A stretch of 64,000 nt of DNA from Terebella lapidaria (lineage: Eukaryota > Annelida > Polychaeta > Terebellida > Terebellidae). A program made the position numbers and the translations under genes. The DNA is taken from NCBI GenBank assembly GCA_949152475.1, contig OX424562.1, positions 22,754,209-22,818,208 of the forward strand, read 5' to 3'. Each line of letters begins with the position of its first letter. Position 1 is the stretch's first letter. The notes beneath the pieces were generated by a model, which did not search any database, had not been told where the DNA came from, and worked only from the letters and a program-made list of their open reading frames with translations. Of this stretch, positions 9,545 to 64,000 are shown in pieces.

Positions 9545-10200
9545 TATTAGCCAGGTGGAAAATCAAGTTCAAAGTCATGAGAATATTCAGCATATATCAT
9601 TTCCTGTTCGCAGTTGATTATTAAGCTGTAAAGTCGATAATGAGCGTGATATTAGCCTTTTTGTTCTCTGACCTTGAAAATGAGGTCAAAGGTCGAATTC
9701 AAGGTCATGGCAATATTCAGCATATATCATTTTCTATATGTTCACAATTGATTCCTAAGTTGTAAAGTCGATAATAAGCGTGATATTAGCCATTTTGTCC
9801 TGTGACCTTGAAAATTAGGTCATAGGTCGAATTGAAGGTCACGACAATTTTCAGAACATATCATTTCCTATATGTTGACAATTGATCCCTAAGCTGTAAA
9901 GTCGATAATAAGCGAGACATTAGCCATTTTGTACTGTGACCTTGAAAATGAAGTCAAAGGTCAAATTCAAGGTCATGATAGTATTCAGTATCATTTCGTA
10001 TATGTTGACAATTGATTCCTAAGCTGTCATCTCGATAATAAGCGAGATATTAGCTATTTTGTGCTCTGACCTTGAAACTGAGGTCAGAGGTCAAAGTCAA
10101 GGTCACGAGAATATTCAGCATATATCATTTCCTATATGTCAACAATTGATTCCTAGTCTCTAATCTCAATATTAAGTGAGATGTTAGGCATCATGTGTCC
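9545..10200 (-). repeat. Core tandem repeats of the Helitron-like element, copy 1
   Basis: About five units spaced close to 130 bp recur here. Each contains an ATAAGCGTGATATTAGCC-like segment, a TTGACAATTGATTCCTA-like segment and a GACCTTGAAAATGAGGTCA-like segment. The same unit occurs about four times in the copy at 25196 and about ten times in the copy at 39183, so the array varies in length between insertions. Confidence 0.8.
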
Positions 10201-25500: not shown

Positions 25501-27876
25501 TTTAAAAATTACTTTCTCAAAAACTGTCTGATCAGTTTTGAGATTTTAGTTTCAAAATGTTCCCCCGATGTATATTTATAATGTGTATAAGTTTTGATGC
25601 TCTTGAATCGCCGGCCTGCGTGCGGCGGCCATTTTGATGTTGCTTACGGGGCCCAAATAGGACTTTCCCATGTTAAATGCTCCTATGCTTTAGAATGGGC
25701 CACAATGTTCTAGATATCTCACTTAATATTGAGATTAGAGACTCGGAATCAATTGTGGACATATAGGAAATGATATATGCTGAATATTCTCGTGACCTTG
25801 AATTTGACCTTTAACCTCATTTTCAAGGTCAGAGCCCAAAATGGCTAATATCTCGCTTATTATTGACTTTACAGCTTAGGAATCAATTGCGGACATATAG
25901 GAAATGTTATATGTCGAATACTCTGATGACCTTGAAATTGACCTTTGACCTACTTTTCAAGGTCAAAGCACAAAATGGCTATTATCTCGCTTATTATCGA
26001 CTTTACATCTTCATGATCTTAGAAATCAATTGTTGACATACAGCAAATGATAAATGCTGAATATTCTGTAGACCTTTAATTTGACATTGGATTTGATTTT
26101 CAAGGTCACAGGACATGATGATTATTATCTCTCTCATTATTGAATTTCCAGCTTAGTAATCAATTGTGAACGTATAGGAAATCAAATATGCTGAACACTC
26201 TCGTGACTTTAAGTTTGACCAGTGACCTTATTTCTAAGACCACGGGACAAAATATAGCTACTAGTATTATATATTGTCCGGTACCCTATCTTAGCCCTTG
26301 GGCTATTTTTTTCTACATACTTGGGTAAATTGATCCCTGTATTTTGGATGTACATGTATTTCCATGCACATTCAATGTCTGTAGTAGGGTTTGATAGTGG
26401 CCCAGTCCTGGTATTCCTTGAGCAAATTCATCATGATGTACAGTAACCATGGTGACAGGGACACTCAGATGAAGGCCAAAATAGTTCATACATTTAATTT
26501 TTTGGTGTGTGTATGGCCAAAACAAAAAGAATTGTGAAACATGTACAGTATGTTAGTTATTAGATGTCTGACCATGTTCATTTCACGTTTTGTGACCATG
26601 GTAATTTATATGTACTTCTTCCCATAGTATACAATTTTCATATGAGCATTTGAGTACTGTTTTTCTATTATACAGGAAACTATTCAAATATTGAACATAT
26701 ATGGTAAATATTTTTATTGAGAAACAGGCTGATTGCATCATGACCTACATATTGTCATTATGGTTATGTACAAATGCTGGTTTTTTTTATGTCAGTTATT
26801 CTGAGCCACATTCTTGGCAACTAATACATGTATAGAGAAAAGAATGAAGTGACCAATTGGATAAGTGTGTGTGCCTATGAAAAAAGTGAATCAATAAATG
26901 AAACTAATGTCAAACAACTTGTAATCAAGAATTAAATTACCGGTAACGATGGTTTTAATACTTGTGTTTCATGCTTGGTAGGTAATACTAGGTATATTAA
27001 TTTACTGAATTTTGTAAATAAAAATTTTTAATTAATCACTTTATAAATTCCACTTGTACATGTTCTTGTATGTGTTGGCATGGCAGAATTGAACCATTTA
27101 CAATATTAATAATGAAAAATATATATGTTCTAAACAAATGTTGTGTATGCAGATATTGATTAGTAGTATTTAACCTCAGTATTGCAGATTAATATGACAG
27201 CTTGAGCAGTATACTGACTTGTTCTTGACATGCACATCATGTACTAGTATTTGAGCTTCTATGAACATGAGGAAAGCAGTGTGCACCTTGCAGGTGTGTT
27301 ACACATGACTGCCCACACAGTCCAGGCAGGTGCCTGTAGCATGTGGCACACAAGATTCCTGTAAACAAAGTATATCTGCTTGTTCTCACTTATTCAACTT
27401 ATTTTGCATACATCTTCCCCTTCCAGACAATGAATGAATGTTCCATAGGTGTACAAGGGTTAAAAAAGTAGTCCCCTTGGAAGTGAACCTGTGGCCATGA
27501 TGGATTTGTTGTTCAGTTCTCACAGCAGAGTCAACTTCAAAAATCCATTGTATGGTTTTGAGGGGGAAATCTAAAAAAGTAAGGCTCGGCTCATAGACTT
27601 GGGTATGTGGCAATTGTTGGAAAAATAGTTAGCAGATTTGTTAATGTATATTTCTATATGAACGGTGACGCGTAAAATTGTGTAATTTAACTTTGTCATT
27701 TGGCATCCTAAAATTTGATTTAATACTTCAAAATTCTTCTTTAATATAATATTGCTTGCTGAAATGCTATTTCTAGGCCCTTTTCCTCATATTGGGTTTG
27801 ATAAAAATAATTTAGTAATATTCAATGCTGCAATATTTACTGTGCTACACAAAAAAATGGTGGGTATTTCTGAATC
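22549..27876. mobile_element. 5.3-kb TTAA-flanked inverted-repeat element
   Basis: TTAA borders the insert at 22545-22548 and 27877-27880. Unit 1 at about 9283-9310 reads across the site with matching length (TGAA in place of TTAA). The ends are inverted repeats: GATGCAGTGAGACCCACCAT on the left against GATTCAGAAATACCCACCAT on the right, with more diverged inverted similarity for 300 bp inward (shared AATTTTACGCGT and GAGCCGAGCCTTAC). No transposase was recognised among its small frames. A Helitron-like copy is nested at 25196. TTAA targets suggest piggyBac-type mobilisation. Confidence 0.75.
25196..26305 (+). mobile_element. Helitron-like element with ~130-bp core repeats, copy 2
   Basis: Starts AGGTTACCGGACC after a T-run and ends with the TAGCCCTTGGGCTA hairpin before a T-run. 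About four core units lie at 25716-26260. Just inside the 5' end, at about 25252, a second leader begins (AGCTTACCGGCCC ... GGGCCGATAAGCT), again after CACATTTTT. This looks like a related family's 5' end nested in or fused to this one. It sits within the 5.3-kb TTAA-flanked element. Confidence 0.65.
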
Positions 27877-39182: not shown

Positions 39183-41322
39183 AGGTTACCGAACCTTTGG
39201 TCTGATAACCTATTGCCGTGGCGTTGCGTCCTTCGTCCGGCGTCCGTCGTCCGTCCGTCCACATTTTTATCATTAAAGTTTACAGTCAAATATTTCTGAA
39301 TTTTTGCTCAAAAATACCTGAAAACATGTCCAGGAAAGTTTTTTTAGTTTTCTGATTTTTGCTTTTTTTCAAAATGGCGGCCATTTTAGAAGAAAAATGT
39401 CTGATTTTGGACTTTGGCGGCTATTTTCTCAAAATCTCTTCAGTAACTTTTTTTTCCTATTGAAGCATATCCCTCCTCATATGATCCCCTATGATGTGTA
39501 TAAGTTTCGTTGCCCTTGAATCGCTCGAACTTGGTCCAAATTGGAATTTTCCATGTTAAATTCTCCTATGCTGTATAATGGGACACATTATGCCTAATAT
39601 CTCACTTAATATTGTGATTAGAGACTAGGAACCAATTGTGGACATATAACAGGAAATGATATATGCTGAATATTCTCATGACCTTAGATCTAAATTTTCA
39701 AAATGGCGGCCATTTTCGACGGAAAATGCCTGATTTCAGACTTTGGCGGCCATTTTCTCAAAATCCGTTCAGTAACTTTTTCTCTCATTGATGCATAACA
39801 ATCCTCATATGGACCCCTATGAAGTGTATGAGTTTTGTTGCCTTTGAATCTCTTGAAGTGGGCCATTTTCGGCCCAAACTCGGCCCGAATGTGACATCCC
39901 CCTCTTAAATTCTCATATGCTTTATAATGGGACACATTATGCCTAATATCTCACTTAATATTGTGATTAGAGACTAGGAAACATAGGAAATGATATATGC
40001 TAAATATTCTCGTGACCTCGAATTTGACCTTTGACCTCATTTTCAGGTCACATGACAAAATGGCTAATATCTCACTTATTATCGATTTTACTGCTTAGGG
40101 ATCAATTGTGGACATATAGGAAATAATATATGCTGAATATTCTCGTGACCTTGAATTTGACCTCTGATCTCAGTTTCAAGGTCAGAGCACAAAATAGCTA
40201 ATATCTCGCTTATTATTGACTTTACAGCTTCGGAATCAATTGTGGACATATAGGAAATAATATATGCCGAATATTCTGATGACCTTGAATTTGACCTCAT
40301 TTTCAAGGGCACAGGAAAAATGGCTAATATCTCGCTTCTTATCGACTTTACAGCTTAGGAATCAATTATGAACATATAGGAAATATGCAGATTATTGCCA
40401 TGACATTGAATCTGACCTTTGACCTCATTTTCAGGATCACGGGACAAAGTGGCTAATATCTCACTTATTATCGATTTTACAGCTTAGGGATCAATTGTGG
40501 GCATATAGGATATGATATATGCTCAATATCCTCGTGACTTTGAATTTGAACTCTGACTTCACTTTCAAGGTCAAGAGCCAAAACTGGATAATATCTCACT
40601 TATTATCGACTTTACAGCTCATAAAGCAGTTGTGGACATTTAGGAAATGATAAACGTCGAATACTCTGATGACTTTAAATTCGACTTTTGACCTCATTTC
40701 AAAGTCACAGGACAAAATGGCTAATATCTGGCTTCTTATTGACTTTACAGCTTAGGAATCAATTGTGAACATACAGGAAATGATTTACAGATTATATACA
40801 GATTGCAGAATATTCTCGTGATCTTGGATTTGACCTTTGACCTAAATTTCAAGATTACGGGACAAAATGCCTAATATCTCACTTGTTATCGACTTTACAG
40901 CTTAGGAATCAATTGTGAACATATAGAAAATGATATAGGCTGAATATTGTCATGACGTTGAAATCGTCCTTTGACCTAATTTTTAAGGTCAATAGGCAAA
41001 ATGGCTAATATCTTGCTTTTCTATTTATTTAATAGCTTGGGAACCAATTATGGACATATGGAAAATGATATACACTGAATATTCTGATGACTTTGAATTT
41101 GACCTTGAATTTGACCTTGACATTATTTTCAAGGTCAGAGCACAAAATGGCTATTAACTTGCTCTTTACAGCTTAGGAATTAATTGTGGATGTACTAGAA
41201 ATTATATGCTGAAAATTCTCGTGACCTTGAATTGACCAATGACCTTATTTTCAAGGTCATGGGACAAATGGCTAATATCCAAAATATATATTGTCCGGTA
41301 ACCTTTCTGAGCCCTTGGGCTA
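39183..41322 (+). mobile_element. Helitron-like element with ~130-bp core repeats, copy 3
   Basis: Begins AGGTTACCGAACC after a T-run; ends with GAGCCCTTGGGCTA before a T-run. The paralogous sites near 35000 and 45583 read through (GGAAAATGATAATTTTTATA) without it. About ten ~130-bp core units at 39590-41260 make it the longest copy. The leader (about 39360-39580), with its ATGGCGGCCATTTT motif, is duplicated at 39700-39950 with one core unit between, so the leader itself was amplified. No protein-coding gene inside. Confidence 0.7.
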
Positions 41323-60703: not shown

Positions 60704-62271
60704 CAAGAAAGCGTCAGGAAATATAGTAGACATGTGTTGCCTCTTAGCATTGCGCAGTTGGACTCAAATGTAGGGTACCGGGAAAAGGGATCATGTTAAA
60801 TTTCAATTCTTTCCAAAACCTAGGCAATGCTGACCATCCCAGTATAGTTCAGTATAATGATTAACGATTAATTTGGTAATCATTTGTACTCACGATGTTG
60901 ATTAACAAAATTTGTCTATAATTACTAACGTCGAAATAATTATTCCCCAATGGACCAATATCAATGCAGAAGGAAGAAATAGACTTCTCACCGTTTTTCT
61001 TTCGCCTCAATAAAAAGGCAGTTAATGGTAGGTCCGTCAATAACGCTTAGGTCTACAGCGTGTATAAAAAGCATGTTGCAGCACTTCTGTCTCATAAATT
61101 ATCATTCCCATCCATGAACTAGACAACAAGTTCAGGTACGGCAGTCACTAGTGTAACGTTTGACGCCCGCTACCTAGGGCGCATGCGCCTCGCATTGCGG
61201 CACGGTCACGGCGGGCACCGTAATTACTTAACTATAACCAAGTAACAGTCCGCCGAACAAGTCCGGCCGTCATACATTACTCAGACATTGCATCATCACG
61301 GTAATGTAGCCCGATGTAACGAGTCCGGAGTGCCATGGGTGTGGCGTCCGGAACCCGCGCGGGCGTATAGCTGGCCTGCCTCGCCGACGGCCCTGCCGCG
61401 GGAATAGAACCCTAGACAGTCGGTCTGCCAGAGCCTGTGTCACACACCATCCCAGGGCGAGAGACTACCGTTCCGTGCGCCCCCGGATCGAAATTACCCC
61501 CGTCATGGGCCCCCAATTGGAAAATGCCCCCGGGGTCCTAGCGGACCCACTTAGCCAGGAAAAGGGGACCTGGAGTACATGGCCGTGTTCGCCGTCGTCC
61601 TCTCGCCTTGAGAGACAACTCCAAGAGACAACTCCGAGTAAGCAAGGAAGAATGCCAGCTTATATAGCTGACAGCTCACGATAGCGAGGGCTGACGTAAG
61701 ACCATTATTACAGTATTGTGGAAAGATCATTGACAGTGCGTTGCCTAGCGAACATGAAGCGGCCAAAACAAGAATAGTGTGTGAAAAAGCCAAACTCCTA
61801 TCGCAATCTTTGGGCAAAATTGTCACATTAGCAAAGTTTGTTATTCACTTTTAGATTTCCATATGAGTTGTCCATAGACCACGGAAGTAGATATTCTTAA
61901 TCGGGGTCTCATTCATTTATTGGTTTCTTGATCGAGTGCACATCTGTGCAAATGGTAGTTACGTGACTGTATATAGGATAATTATGTACATCTGTACGTG
62001 ATGCACGTAGTCAATGGTCACTCACCAGTAGCATATGGCTCACGGTGTTATGAGCGACCGTCTAGCACATTCACACATTTTGAAATTCCGTAATCGTGTC
62101 ACGGCAGATGCTCCGTGTGGTGAATGCCTCACAATAGTAGTCCTTCCAAACACTGATTAGCTTTGCAATGATGCTCTTTGTTATCGCGTGTCATTCGCGC
62201 ATCTGTATCCTGTAGCACATATCAGATGTGCTCGTGTGGCCGAAATAATAAGAATACTATTCTATTTCAAA
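60704..62271 (+). other. Flank of a fifth fucosyltransferase copy
   Basis: Bases 60704-60840 continue the 3' flank of B' (as 37855-37990 after B). Bases 60845-61150 and 61830-62240 match the 5' flanks of A' and B (for example ATCATTTGTACTCACGATG and ACTGATTAGCTTTG). A GC-rich insert at 61152 interrupts it. Confidence 0.6.
61152..61827 (+). mobile_element. Solo-LTR-like fossil (LTR retroelement, possibly Gypsy)
   Basis: A 676-bp GC-rich insert in an AT-rich flank; the paralogous flank of B (about 35430) reads across the site. It begins TGTAAC and ends GTCACA, the TG...CA form of an LTR, and is bordered by CTAG/TTAG, a possible 4-bp target duplication with one change. A TATATAG motif lies near 61665. 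No internal region or second LTR is in the window, so it appears to be a solo LTR. The family is a guess from the termini. Confidence 0.5.
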
Positions 62272-62385
62272 TACTATTTCATACTATTTGTCATTATCAC
62301 AACACTATTTTTCTACACATGGATCATATTGGATGAGCCAAACATCAAATTACACTTGATGAAGAACGACAATGATGATCAAACT
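62272..62385 (+). pseudogene. Fifth GT11 fucosyltransferase, 5' stub (type B)
   Basis: Encodes FILFVIITTLFFYTWIILDE and PNIKLHLMKN, matching the anchor and start of the stem of B and B' (LDE-NIK-HL). The usual start region is lost: no ATG stands where the others begin. After about 38 codons the frame runs into a foldback repeat element at 62386. No further GT11 sequence follows up to the window end, so the gene is dead, or its remainder lies beyond 64000. Confidence 0.75.
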
Positions 62386-63560
62386 ACGGTGGCTCCAATT
62401 TGCAATCAATTTCCTCTGCGTTTATACACTTTAACAAAAAACAATGTGATCGAATTCATGGACGTCACAATTATTTCTGACGCGTCAATTTCTGATGCAG
62501 CAAAAATATTCGTGACGCATCACAAATACATTTAAACAATTTCTGACGCACCACAAATATTTCTGATACGTCATAGATCATTTCTGATGCAGCAAAAATA
62601 TTTGTGACGCATCACAAATTATTTTTGACGCAGCACAAATATTTGTGATGCATCACAAATCATTTCTGATGCAGCACACATATTTCTGATGCATCACAAA
62701 TGAATTCTGTTTCAGCACAAATATTCCTGACGCATCACAAATGATTTCTGATGCAGCACAAATATTTCTGATGCAGCACAAATATTTCTGATGCGTCACA
62801 AATGCCTTTAGACAATTTCTGATGCAGCACAAATATTCATGATGCGTCACAAATCATTTCTGATGCAGCACAAACATTTCTGATGAGTCACAAATGATTT
62901 CTGATGCAGCACAAATATTTCTGATGCAGCACAAATATTTCTGATGCTTCACAAATACCCTTAGACAATTTCCGACGTAGCACAATTTTTCCTGACGCAT
63001 CCTAACGCATTTCCTGACGCAGCACAATTATTTCTGATGCGTCACTAATGATTTCTGATGCAGCACAAATATTTCTGATGCGTCACAAATACCTTTAGAC
63101 AATTTTTGACGCAGTACAAATATTCCTGATGTATGTCCTGACTTAAATATTTAAGTCGCGACAGAAATATTTGTGTCGCAGCACAAATGATTTGTGTCAT
63201 GACTAGAATATTTGTGTTGCGACAGAAATATTTGTGTCGCAGGACAAATCATTTCTGTCATTACTTTACTATTTGTGTCGTGACAGTAATATTTATGTCA
63301 CGACTAAAATTATTTCTGTCACAGCACAAAGATTTGTGTTGCAGCAGAAATGATTTCTGTCGTGACTTTAATATTTGTGTCAGGACTTAAATATTTGTGT
63401 CACGACAGAAATATTTATGTCGTGACTAAAAAGATTTCTGTCGCAGCACAAATATTTGTGTCGCGACAGGAATATTTGTGCTGCATGTGAACTTAATTAT
63501 TTATTTTCGTAATGTTACTTCCAAAATGCGAGAACAATCATGTCATTTAGGAGCCACCGT
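62386..63560. mobile_element. Foldback element made of palindromic ~20-bp repeats, copy 1
   Basis: Ends are ACGGTGGCTCC (62386) and its inverse GGAGCCACCGT (to 63560), with the 3-bp direct repeat ACT on both sides (62383-62385, 63561-63563). The left arm (about 62460-63130) repeats units like ATTTCTGATGCAGCACAAAT. The right arm (about 63150-63490) repeats ATTTGTGTCGCGACAGAAAT, which is broadly its inverse. The whole insert can therefore fold on itself around 63140. It has no coding capacity and has split the fifth fucosyltransferase. Confidence 0.7.
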
Positions 63561-63563
63561 ACT

Positions 63564-64000
63564 ACGGTGGCTCTGAATTGCCATCAATTTTATCTGAGTT
63601 TTTTACACTTCAACGAAAACAAATATAACTACATGGATGTCACAAATGATTTCTGATGCAGCACAAATGTTCTGACGCATCACAAATGATTTCTGATGCA
63701 GCACAAATATTTTTGGCGCATCACAAATGATTTCTGATGCAGCACAAATATTTCTGACGCATCACAAATGATTTCTGATGCAGCACAAATATTTGTGATG
63801 CGCCACAAATGATTTCTGATGCAGCACAAATATTTGTGATACATCACAAATGATTCTGACGACACAAATATTTTTAACGCATTACAAATGATTTCTGATG
63901 CAGTACAAATATTTTTGACACATCACAAATGATTTCTGACGCAGCACAAATATTTCTGACGTGCCACAAATGATTTCTGATGCAGCACAGATATTTGTGA
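63564..64000. mobile_element. Foldback element, copy 2 (runs off the window)
   Basis: Starts ACGGTGGCTCTGAATTGC right after the ACT that borders copy 1. It continues with the same leader (a TACACTT-AACGAAAAC-like stretch and ATGGATGTCACAA) and the same GATGCAGCACAAATATTT repeats to the end. It is thus a head-to-tail neighbour of copy 1; its right end is not in the window. Confidence 0.7.

Follow-up and report, generated by a model that had tools for sequence, protein, structure and literature searches.

The IS3EU/GingerRoot superfamily is described as having TA...TA termini, target duplications usually of 6 bp and an integrase-like DDE transposase (Kojima and Bao 2023, PMC10045372). Among elements with repeat-bearing arms, Tetris, for which a Mutator affiliation was suggested, carries ~220-bp repeats and makes 8-10 bp duplications, and Galileo, a foldback element of the P superfamily, is described with further binding sites for its transposase in the arm repeats (PMC4079207). 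In the part of an oyster satellite paper drawn on here, two satellites are tabulated as overlapping IS3EU. No description of tandem-repeat or foldback arms in IS3EU/GingerRoot was found at the level of titles and abstract openings among the papers listed. A study of the clam Donax, to judge by its title, reports tandem-repeat-containing MITEs, which are likewise short non-autonomous elements with tandem repeats. CACTA En/Spm elements, which belong to another superfamily, have many short subterminal TnpA sites that serve in end pairing and promoter control; compared with the arrays reported here, those motifs are fewer and form no palindrome satellite.

The window, a stretch of 64,000 nucleotides from the annelid Terebella lapidaria, lies on contig C8 of a genome (G000) that was searched over 761.6 Mb in 438 contigs. 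Its right end is read, with a probability of about 0.58, as a pair of damaged copies, both non-autonomous, of a foldback DNA transposon that is IS3EU/GingerRoot-like and whose arrays are putative protein-binding sites (Table 1). The group to which these copies belong is like IS3EU/GingerRoot in termini, duplication length and transposase class (PMC10045372), and it is by these three features that it is called IS3EU/GingerRoot-like; in contrast, the superfamily description, as far as that paper was drawn on, lacks the array-bearing arms and the HECT-like gene found here. With Tetris (PMC4079207) the group shares long inverted arms of tandem repeats, a variable unit number and arrays that can expand to satellites, and with Galileo tandem-repeat inverted arms, a variable unit number and possible satellite expansion, but it differs from both in its ~20-bp near-palindromic units, 6-bp duplications and integrase-type transposase. 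The foldback architecture is here extended to an integrase-type, IS3EU-like group.

Table 1. Features of the two neighbouring elements in window positions, and the end types that share the termini
Feature	Position	Strand	Sequence	Remark
Element 1	62385..63561			transposon copy of 1,177 bp
Left terminal inverted repeat, element 1, type A end	62385..62396	+	TACGGTGGCTCC	exact inverted match to 63550-63561
Type A subterminal segment	62397..62486	+		similar to the 24 ends in the genome that fit TAYGGTGGCTCCRAATTK
Type A array, 28 near-palindromic units	62487..63121	+	ATTTCTGATGCAGCACAAAT / ATTTSTGAYGCRTCACAAAT alternating	41 bp per pair
Joint, type A half / type B half	63122..63128	.		single genome occurrence
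Type B array, 18 units	63129..63493	-	ATTTGTGTCGCGACAGAAAT type	61 bp per three units
Type B subterminal segment	63494..63549	-		same at both ends of 11.85-kb element
Right terminal inverted repeat, element 1	63550..63561	-	GGAGCCACCGTA	
Single-base gap separating elements 1 and 2	63562..63562	.		
Left terminus of element 2	63563..63574	+	TACGGTGGCTCT	one mismatch
Type A array of element 2	63649..64000	+		stops ~21 bp past window
End type A			ATTTCTGATGCAGCACAAAT	window left
End type B			ATTTGTGTCGCGACAGAAAT	window right
End type C			ATTTCCCTCGCGAGGAAAAC type	
End type D			core GACGCGTC	one copy
End type E			cores CGCTGCAGCG, CGCCGCGGCG, GGTCGCGACC	
End type F			CACC motifs	same termini, non-palindromic array

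The sequence-only reading had proposed a transposon with a body made of palindrome satellite and exact 11-bp inverted ends. The transposon itself is supported, since pairs of TACGGTGGCTCC flank arrays and have target duplications in relatives, and the ends are indeed exactly inverted, over 12 bp. Element 1 is a hybrid of two end types, its left half being of type A and its right half of type B, and a 30-mer placed over the joint matched the genome once at up to three mismatches, the match being the window itself. The type A end of the window, TACGGTGGCTCCAATTTG, is a near variant that falls outside the pattern TAYGGTGGCTCCRAATTK. On the other side, the first 827 bases of an 11.85-kb element on contig C15, when inverted, match positions 314-1177 of element 1 at 77% identity. 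The arms are inverse, as had been claimed, in a loose sense, with 386 of 521 aligned bases identical (74%); this is not unusual for the group, because the inverted arms of three A-type and four C-type relatives are 72-79% and 76-84% identical, while six B-type relatives reach 86-89%. The 6-bp target duplication is absent at the window copy, where TCAAAC stands against CTACGG (1/6), and the copy is most simply a local product of recombination or deletion between neighbouring arrays.

Two further claims concerned the flanks. The ACT reported as a 3-bp flanking repeat takes in one base of the terminus on each side, and relatives have 6-bp duplications. Harbinger-like elements make 3-bp target duplications, and such an assignment was rejected on these same two grounds, the 6-bp duplications of the group and the overlap of the ACT flank with the terminus. 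As for the two abutting elements, a second copy does start at 63563, one base on, and no right terminus was seen for it, its array running out beyond the window into other sequence. A GC-rich segment beside element 1 (window about 61140-61640) looks by eye like one beside a type F array (L092, about 800-1300), and may be another dispersed repeat.

Other copies of these ends are plentiful, TACGGTGGCTCC having 305 exact genome matches against 29 for its reversed control. Among 31 complete copies listed by hand, 24 have perfect 6-bp target duplications, one has a perfect 7-bp duplication, four match at 5/6 and two fail (L033, 3/6; L088, 4/6), where the chance of a 6/6 match is ~0.0005. A mechanical pass over all loci retrieved found perfect 6-bp duplications at 26 of 40 distinct neighbouring terminus pairs; among the remaining 14 are the window copy and nested or inner ends that were wrongly paired. 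Both termini read TA...TA in 30 of the 31 copies (L082 starts TT), a tally that is not independent of the terminus search by which the copies were retrieved; the longer form TACGG...CCGTA is found in the 11.85-kb element and the window copy. The count of 31 leaves out single-terminus loci, repeats of one place, two large duplication-bearing elements, a 343-bp type A copy with an altered left end (L062, 6/7 flank bases matching), a copy with an altered right end (L014), a chance pair (L011), the short inner pairs L071:500-1392 and L074:500-620, and the pair L073:500-9575. For type C, 19 of 21 listed pairs were retrieved. Three large candidate pairs were found, two of them with a 6-bp duplication and the third, L073:500-9575, with none.

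Two loci on contig C1 depart from the simple pattern. Between termini at L074:500 and L075:5421 lie 11.15 kb that carry short B-like arrays and are flanked by a perfect 6-bp duplication; none of the at least 117 transposase matches in the genome falls there, and the stretch is possibly a carrier of unrelated DNA. At L085 (G000:C1:35673500-35679000) a type A right end and the same flank occur three times with a period of 1,596 bp, a tandem duplication that takes in flanking DNA.

The near-palindromic ~20-bp units that had been described in the window are real. Units were sought with the anchor ATTT...AAAT, which alone fixes up to four of the ten symmetric positions, and the mean number of complementary positions out of ten is 7.3 for the 28 units at 62487-63121, 6.9 for the 18 at 63129-63493 and 7.4 for the 17 at 63649-63992. 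Counting near-perfect palindrome centres (at least 8 of 9 pairs) gave 6 in the first array, 4 in the second and 6 in the third, where shuffles gave 0.4, 0.3 and 0.5 (at most 3), although these shuffles destroy tandem order and one good unit is thereby counted many times. Single type A units are mildly palindromic, with 11-16% of shuffles as palindromic as the 20-mer consensus; for the 41-mer the best palindrome is matched by 10.5% of shuffles and the number of dyads by 0/200. The type B consensus is matched by 2.5-8% of shuffles for the 20-mer, and by 1.5% and 0/200 for the 61-mer. Dyads spaced every ~10 bp were rejected as a separate finding, because any palindromic unit repeated with period P brings with it another dyad, at P/2. 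In the proposed folding check, the left array, folded as one DNA strand, has z = -8.4, with 0/20 shuffles as good.

Across the genome, the arrays distinguish at least six types of end that share TACGGTGGCT (Table 1), five of which combine common termini and a ~20-bp period with differing, mostly palindromic cores. Autocorrelation gives periods of 41/2 for A and E, 61/3 for B and C, 20-21 bp for D and 50 bp for F. Type D alone has a core like that of type A in the window, to which B, C and E bear no relation in their cores. In the longer consensus, the dyad number of A, B and one C array is reached by 0-0.5% of 200 shuffles, and that of the other C array by 4.5% and 0%. For type D, 5.5-6% of shuffles are as palindromic as the 20-mer consensus and 28-30% as the 62-mer, and the dyad number is reached by 5.5% and 29.5%, respectively. 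Type E is uneven: the dyad number is reached by 0.5% and 12% of shuffles in the left array and by 39.5% and 100% in the right, and the consensus palindromy of one array is weak (33-100% of shuffles as good), and in three whole E elements the palindrome centres number 8 (shuffles 0.4, at most 4), 3 (0.2, at most 2) and 5 (0.5, at most 2). The type F consensus has no dyads; its arms are present without unit palindromes. Ends counted at up to three mismatches number 631 for E, 391 for F and 71 for one C end type, and type A ends number 24 with no mismatch, counts that are not directly comparable between types because the search patterns differ. The 21 listed terminus pairs of type C range from 388 to 1,022 bp. 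On contig C7, ~11 kb of array (L076:495 to L077:1526) follow a type A terminus at L076:378, an apparent case of a transposon arm grown into a satellite.

The coding capacity of the group is seen in the C15 element, which spans 11,850 bp between termini and is flanked by GTAAGA, a perfect 6-bp duplication. The inverted arms are 88.8% identical to one another over 759 bp, and each arm consists of a ~40-bp end, a short spacer and a ~0.7 kb type B array, with 12.1 and 11.5 copies of the 61-bp repeat, i.e. the long inverted arms with tandem repeats that mark a foldback element. A reverse-strand frame matches the Pfam integrase core rva_4 (3.9e-35), one forward-strand frame matches Pfam HECT (3.4e-6) and a second forward frame, with no Pfam match, is HECT-like by eye. 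On contig C11 a second transposase frame, 70% identical, is separated by 0.9 kb from a type A array with a type A terminus at its end, and the HECT match there is just under the cut-off (22.5 against 23.9 bits). Both transposase frames are above the cut-off for rva_4 (3.9e-35 and 2.4e-33) and below it for Pfam rve, and both show by eye D-58-D-41-E; no HHCC zinc motif was seen by eye upstream of the core in the two frames, which may not span the full gene. A search of solved structures with the transposase gave 0 matches at E up to 1, and a pattern of the 6-bp flank plus terminus gave no match for the left end of the C11 type A element.

Because the B arrays of C15 and the A array of C11 accompany transposases that are 70% identical, the A and the B arrays are each paired with a separate transposase lineage; no partner was established for C, D, E or F. 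For types C and E none was seen by eye near the terminus among the matches listed, and a script that compared part of the type E places listed (C1, C5, C7 and C9) found none within 30 kb. An F end was found 3.2 kb from a diverged match to the transposase; the pairing is not counted, since ~0.5 coincidences of this kind are expected by chance from 391 F ends and at least 117 matches. Just inside the left array of the C15 element, at L071:1381-1392, there is an inner inverted copy of the terminus, which by eye shortly precedes a possible start codon at ~L071:1421.

What the arrays do was approached by comparing units between and within families. The between-family comparison took one unit from each of types A-E, a small set in which clearly palindromic unit types were chosen, and is for that reason support and not proof: covariation was 0.48 against 0.19, paired cells 86% against 73.5% and cells changed on both sides 9 against 4.1, with 0/500 shuffles as high for each, and slid controls were lower for paired cells and covariation. 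The other two of the five measures were within the shuffles (pairs changed on both sides, 85/500; further pair types, 310/500). Within families, pairing did not exceed that of shuffled halves in A (0.591 against 0.608), B (0.603 against 0.647) or C (0.569 against 0.572), nor was there a clear excess in register (217/500, 437/500 and 60/500 shuffles as high, respectively). A slight excess was found in one long type A array (0.609 against 0.585, sd 0.009, largest shuffle 0.613) and in register in type E (33/500 and 24/500 shuffles as high), type F was below its shuffles (0.354 against 0.572), and D and E, with 4 and 8 units, are too few for shuffled halves. In four type B arrays the CANAAATATTTGTG block is conserved and the core CpGs vary mainly C to T and G to A.

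Since A, B and C have no clear within-family excess, strand pairing is probably not the conserved property, and independent conservation of each half-site suits a protein that binds as a dimer. With cores that differ symmetrically between types and changes within types that are mostly uncompensated, symmetric protein-binding sites would appear to fit the arrays better than hairpins. It is correspondingly improbable that the arrays act as structure, i.e. as single-stranded hairpins or cruciforms that aid excision, replication or double-stranded-RNA silencing: the stable fold of the left array, the inverted arms and the slight excess of paired positions in E and the long type A array agree with such a role, but a compensatory excess is not clear in A, B or C, type F has arms without unit palindromes, and folding alone proves little because any inverted array folds well. 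Slightly less probable again is regulation of element expression through binding of the units by a host factor, for instance of the bZIP kind or a reader of CpG methylation. The window arrays do contain 12 TGAYGCRTCA cores, and the CpG-rich B cores vary mainly by C to T and G to A changes, two points in favour of such a factor; however, the bZIP resemblance noted by the sequence-only reading is not supported, the type A arrays of the window having no CRE (TGACGTCA) and one AP-1-like site (TGASTCA), and the unrelated cores of B, C and E count against a host factor because it would favour one motif.

The main rival treats the arrays as neutral: a minisatellite would have arisen beside a terminus, spread with the element as a passenger and been homogenised by unequal exchange, so that palindromes and period are simply inherited. 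This possibility, which is unlikely but of some weight, is strengthened by the type A array that spans ~11 kb; the varying length of type C copies, the mild palindromy of single A units and the lack of clear compensation within A, B and C also accord with it, and Tetris seeds satellites likewise in Drosophila (PMC4079207). Drift alone, however, does not predict that differing cores keep a ~20-bp period and dyad symmetry, as A, B and C do above all, and the AT-rich block of type B is conserved while its CpG core decays. Arrays of binding sites are favoured on the between-family, within-family and type B conservation tests together with the analogy of Galileo, although a palindrome is not needed in every lineage, as the 50-bp non-palindromic array of type F shows behind the same termini.

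As binding sites, the arrays would offer multiple copies of a target for a protein encoded by the element, most simply the transposase, a dimer of which may recognise each near-palindrome. With a period of about two helix turns the sites would lie on one face of the DNA, and this could help both to load the protein and to bring the two ends together. Control of the promoters of inward-facing genes is a likely second role, because the arrays sit between each terminus and those genes. Lineages would then have altered the sequence of the site and kept its symmetry and spacing, and the occurrence of different palindromes at the same spacing in sister families points to the arrays as places where the element's own machinery docks. 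A more speculative step, which we regard as possible though doubtful, is that lineage-specific palindromic sites two helix turns apart form a lock between the protein of a family and its own ends, replaced symmetrically when families split, such that the protein of each family zips its two arrays together and the arrays of relatives are ignored. Should the arrays prove to be binding sites, about five versions of one device, different in recognition sequence and some of them in many copies, coexist in a single genome, and it becomes testable how transposon families gain specificity for ends of their own, why foldback arms have arisen repeatedly and by what route transposon ends become satellite DNA.

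A tandem repeat of ~134 bp with TCAAGGTCA/TGACCTTGA motifs, which we take to be the letters of an SF-1/ERR-type half-site, occurs in the window at 9563-10191, 25714-26253 and 39983-41279, and a similar repeat is present in the C15 element (L071:2377-2983) and at the C11 locus (L091:5208-5499).
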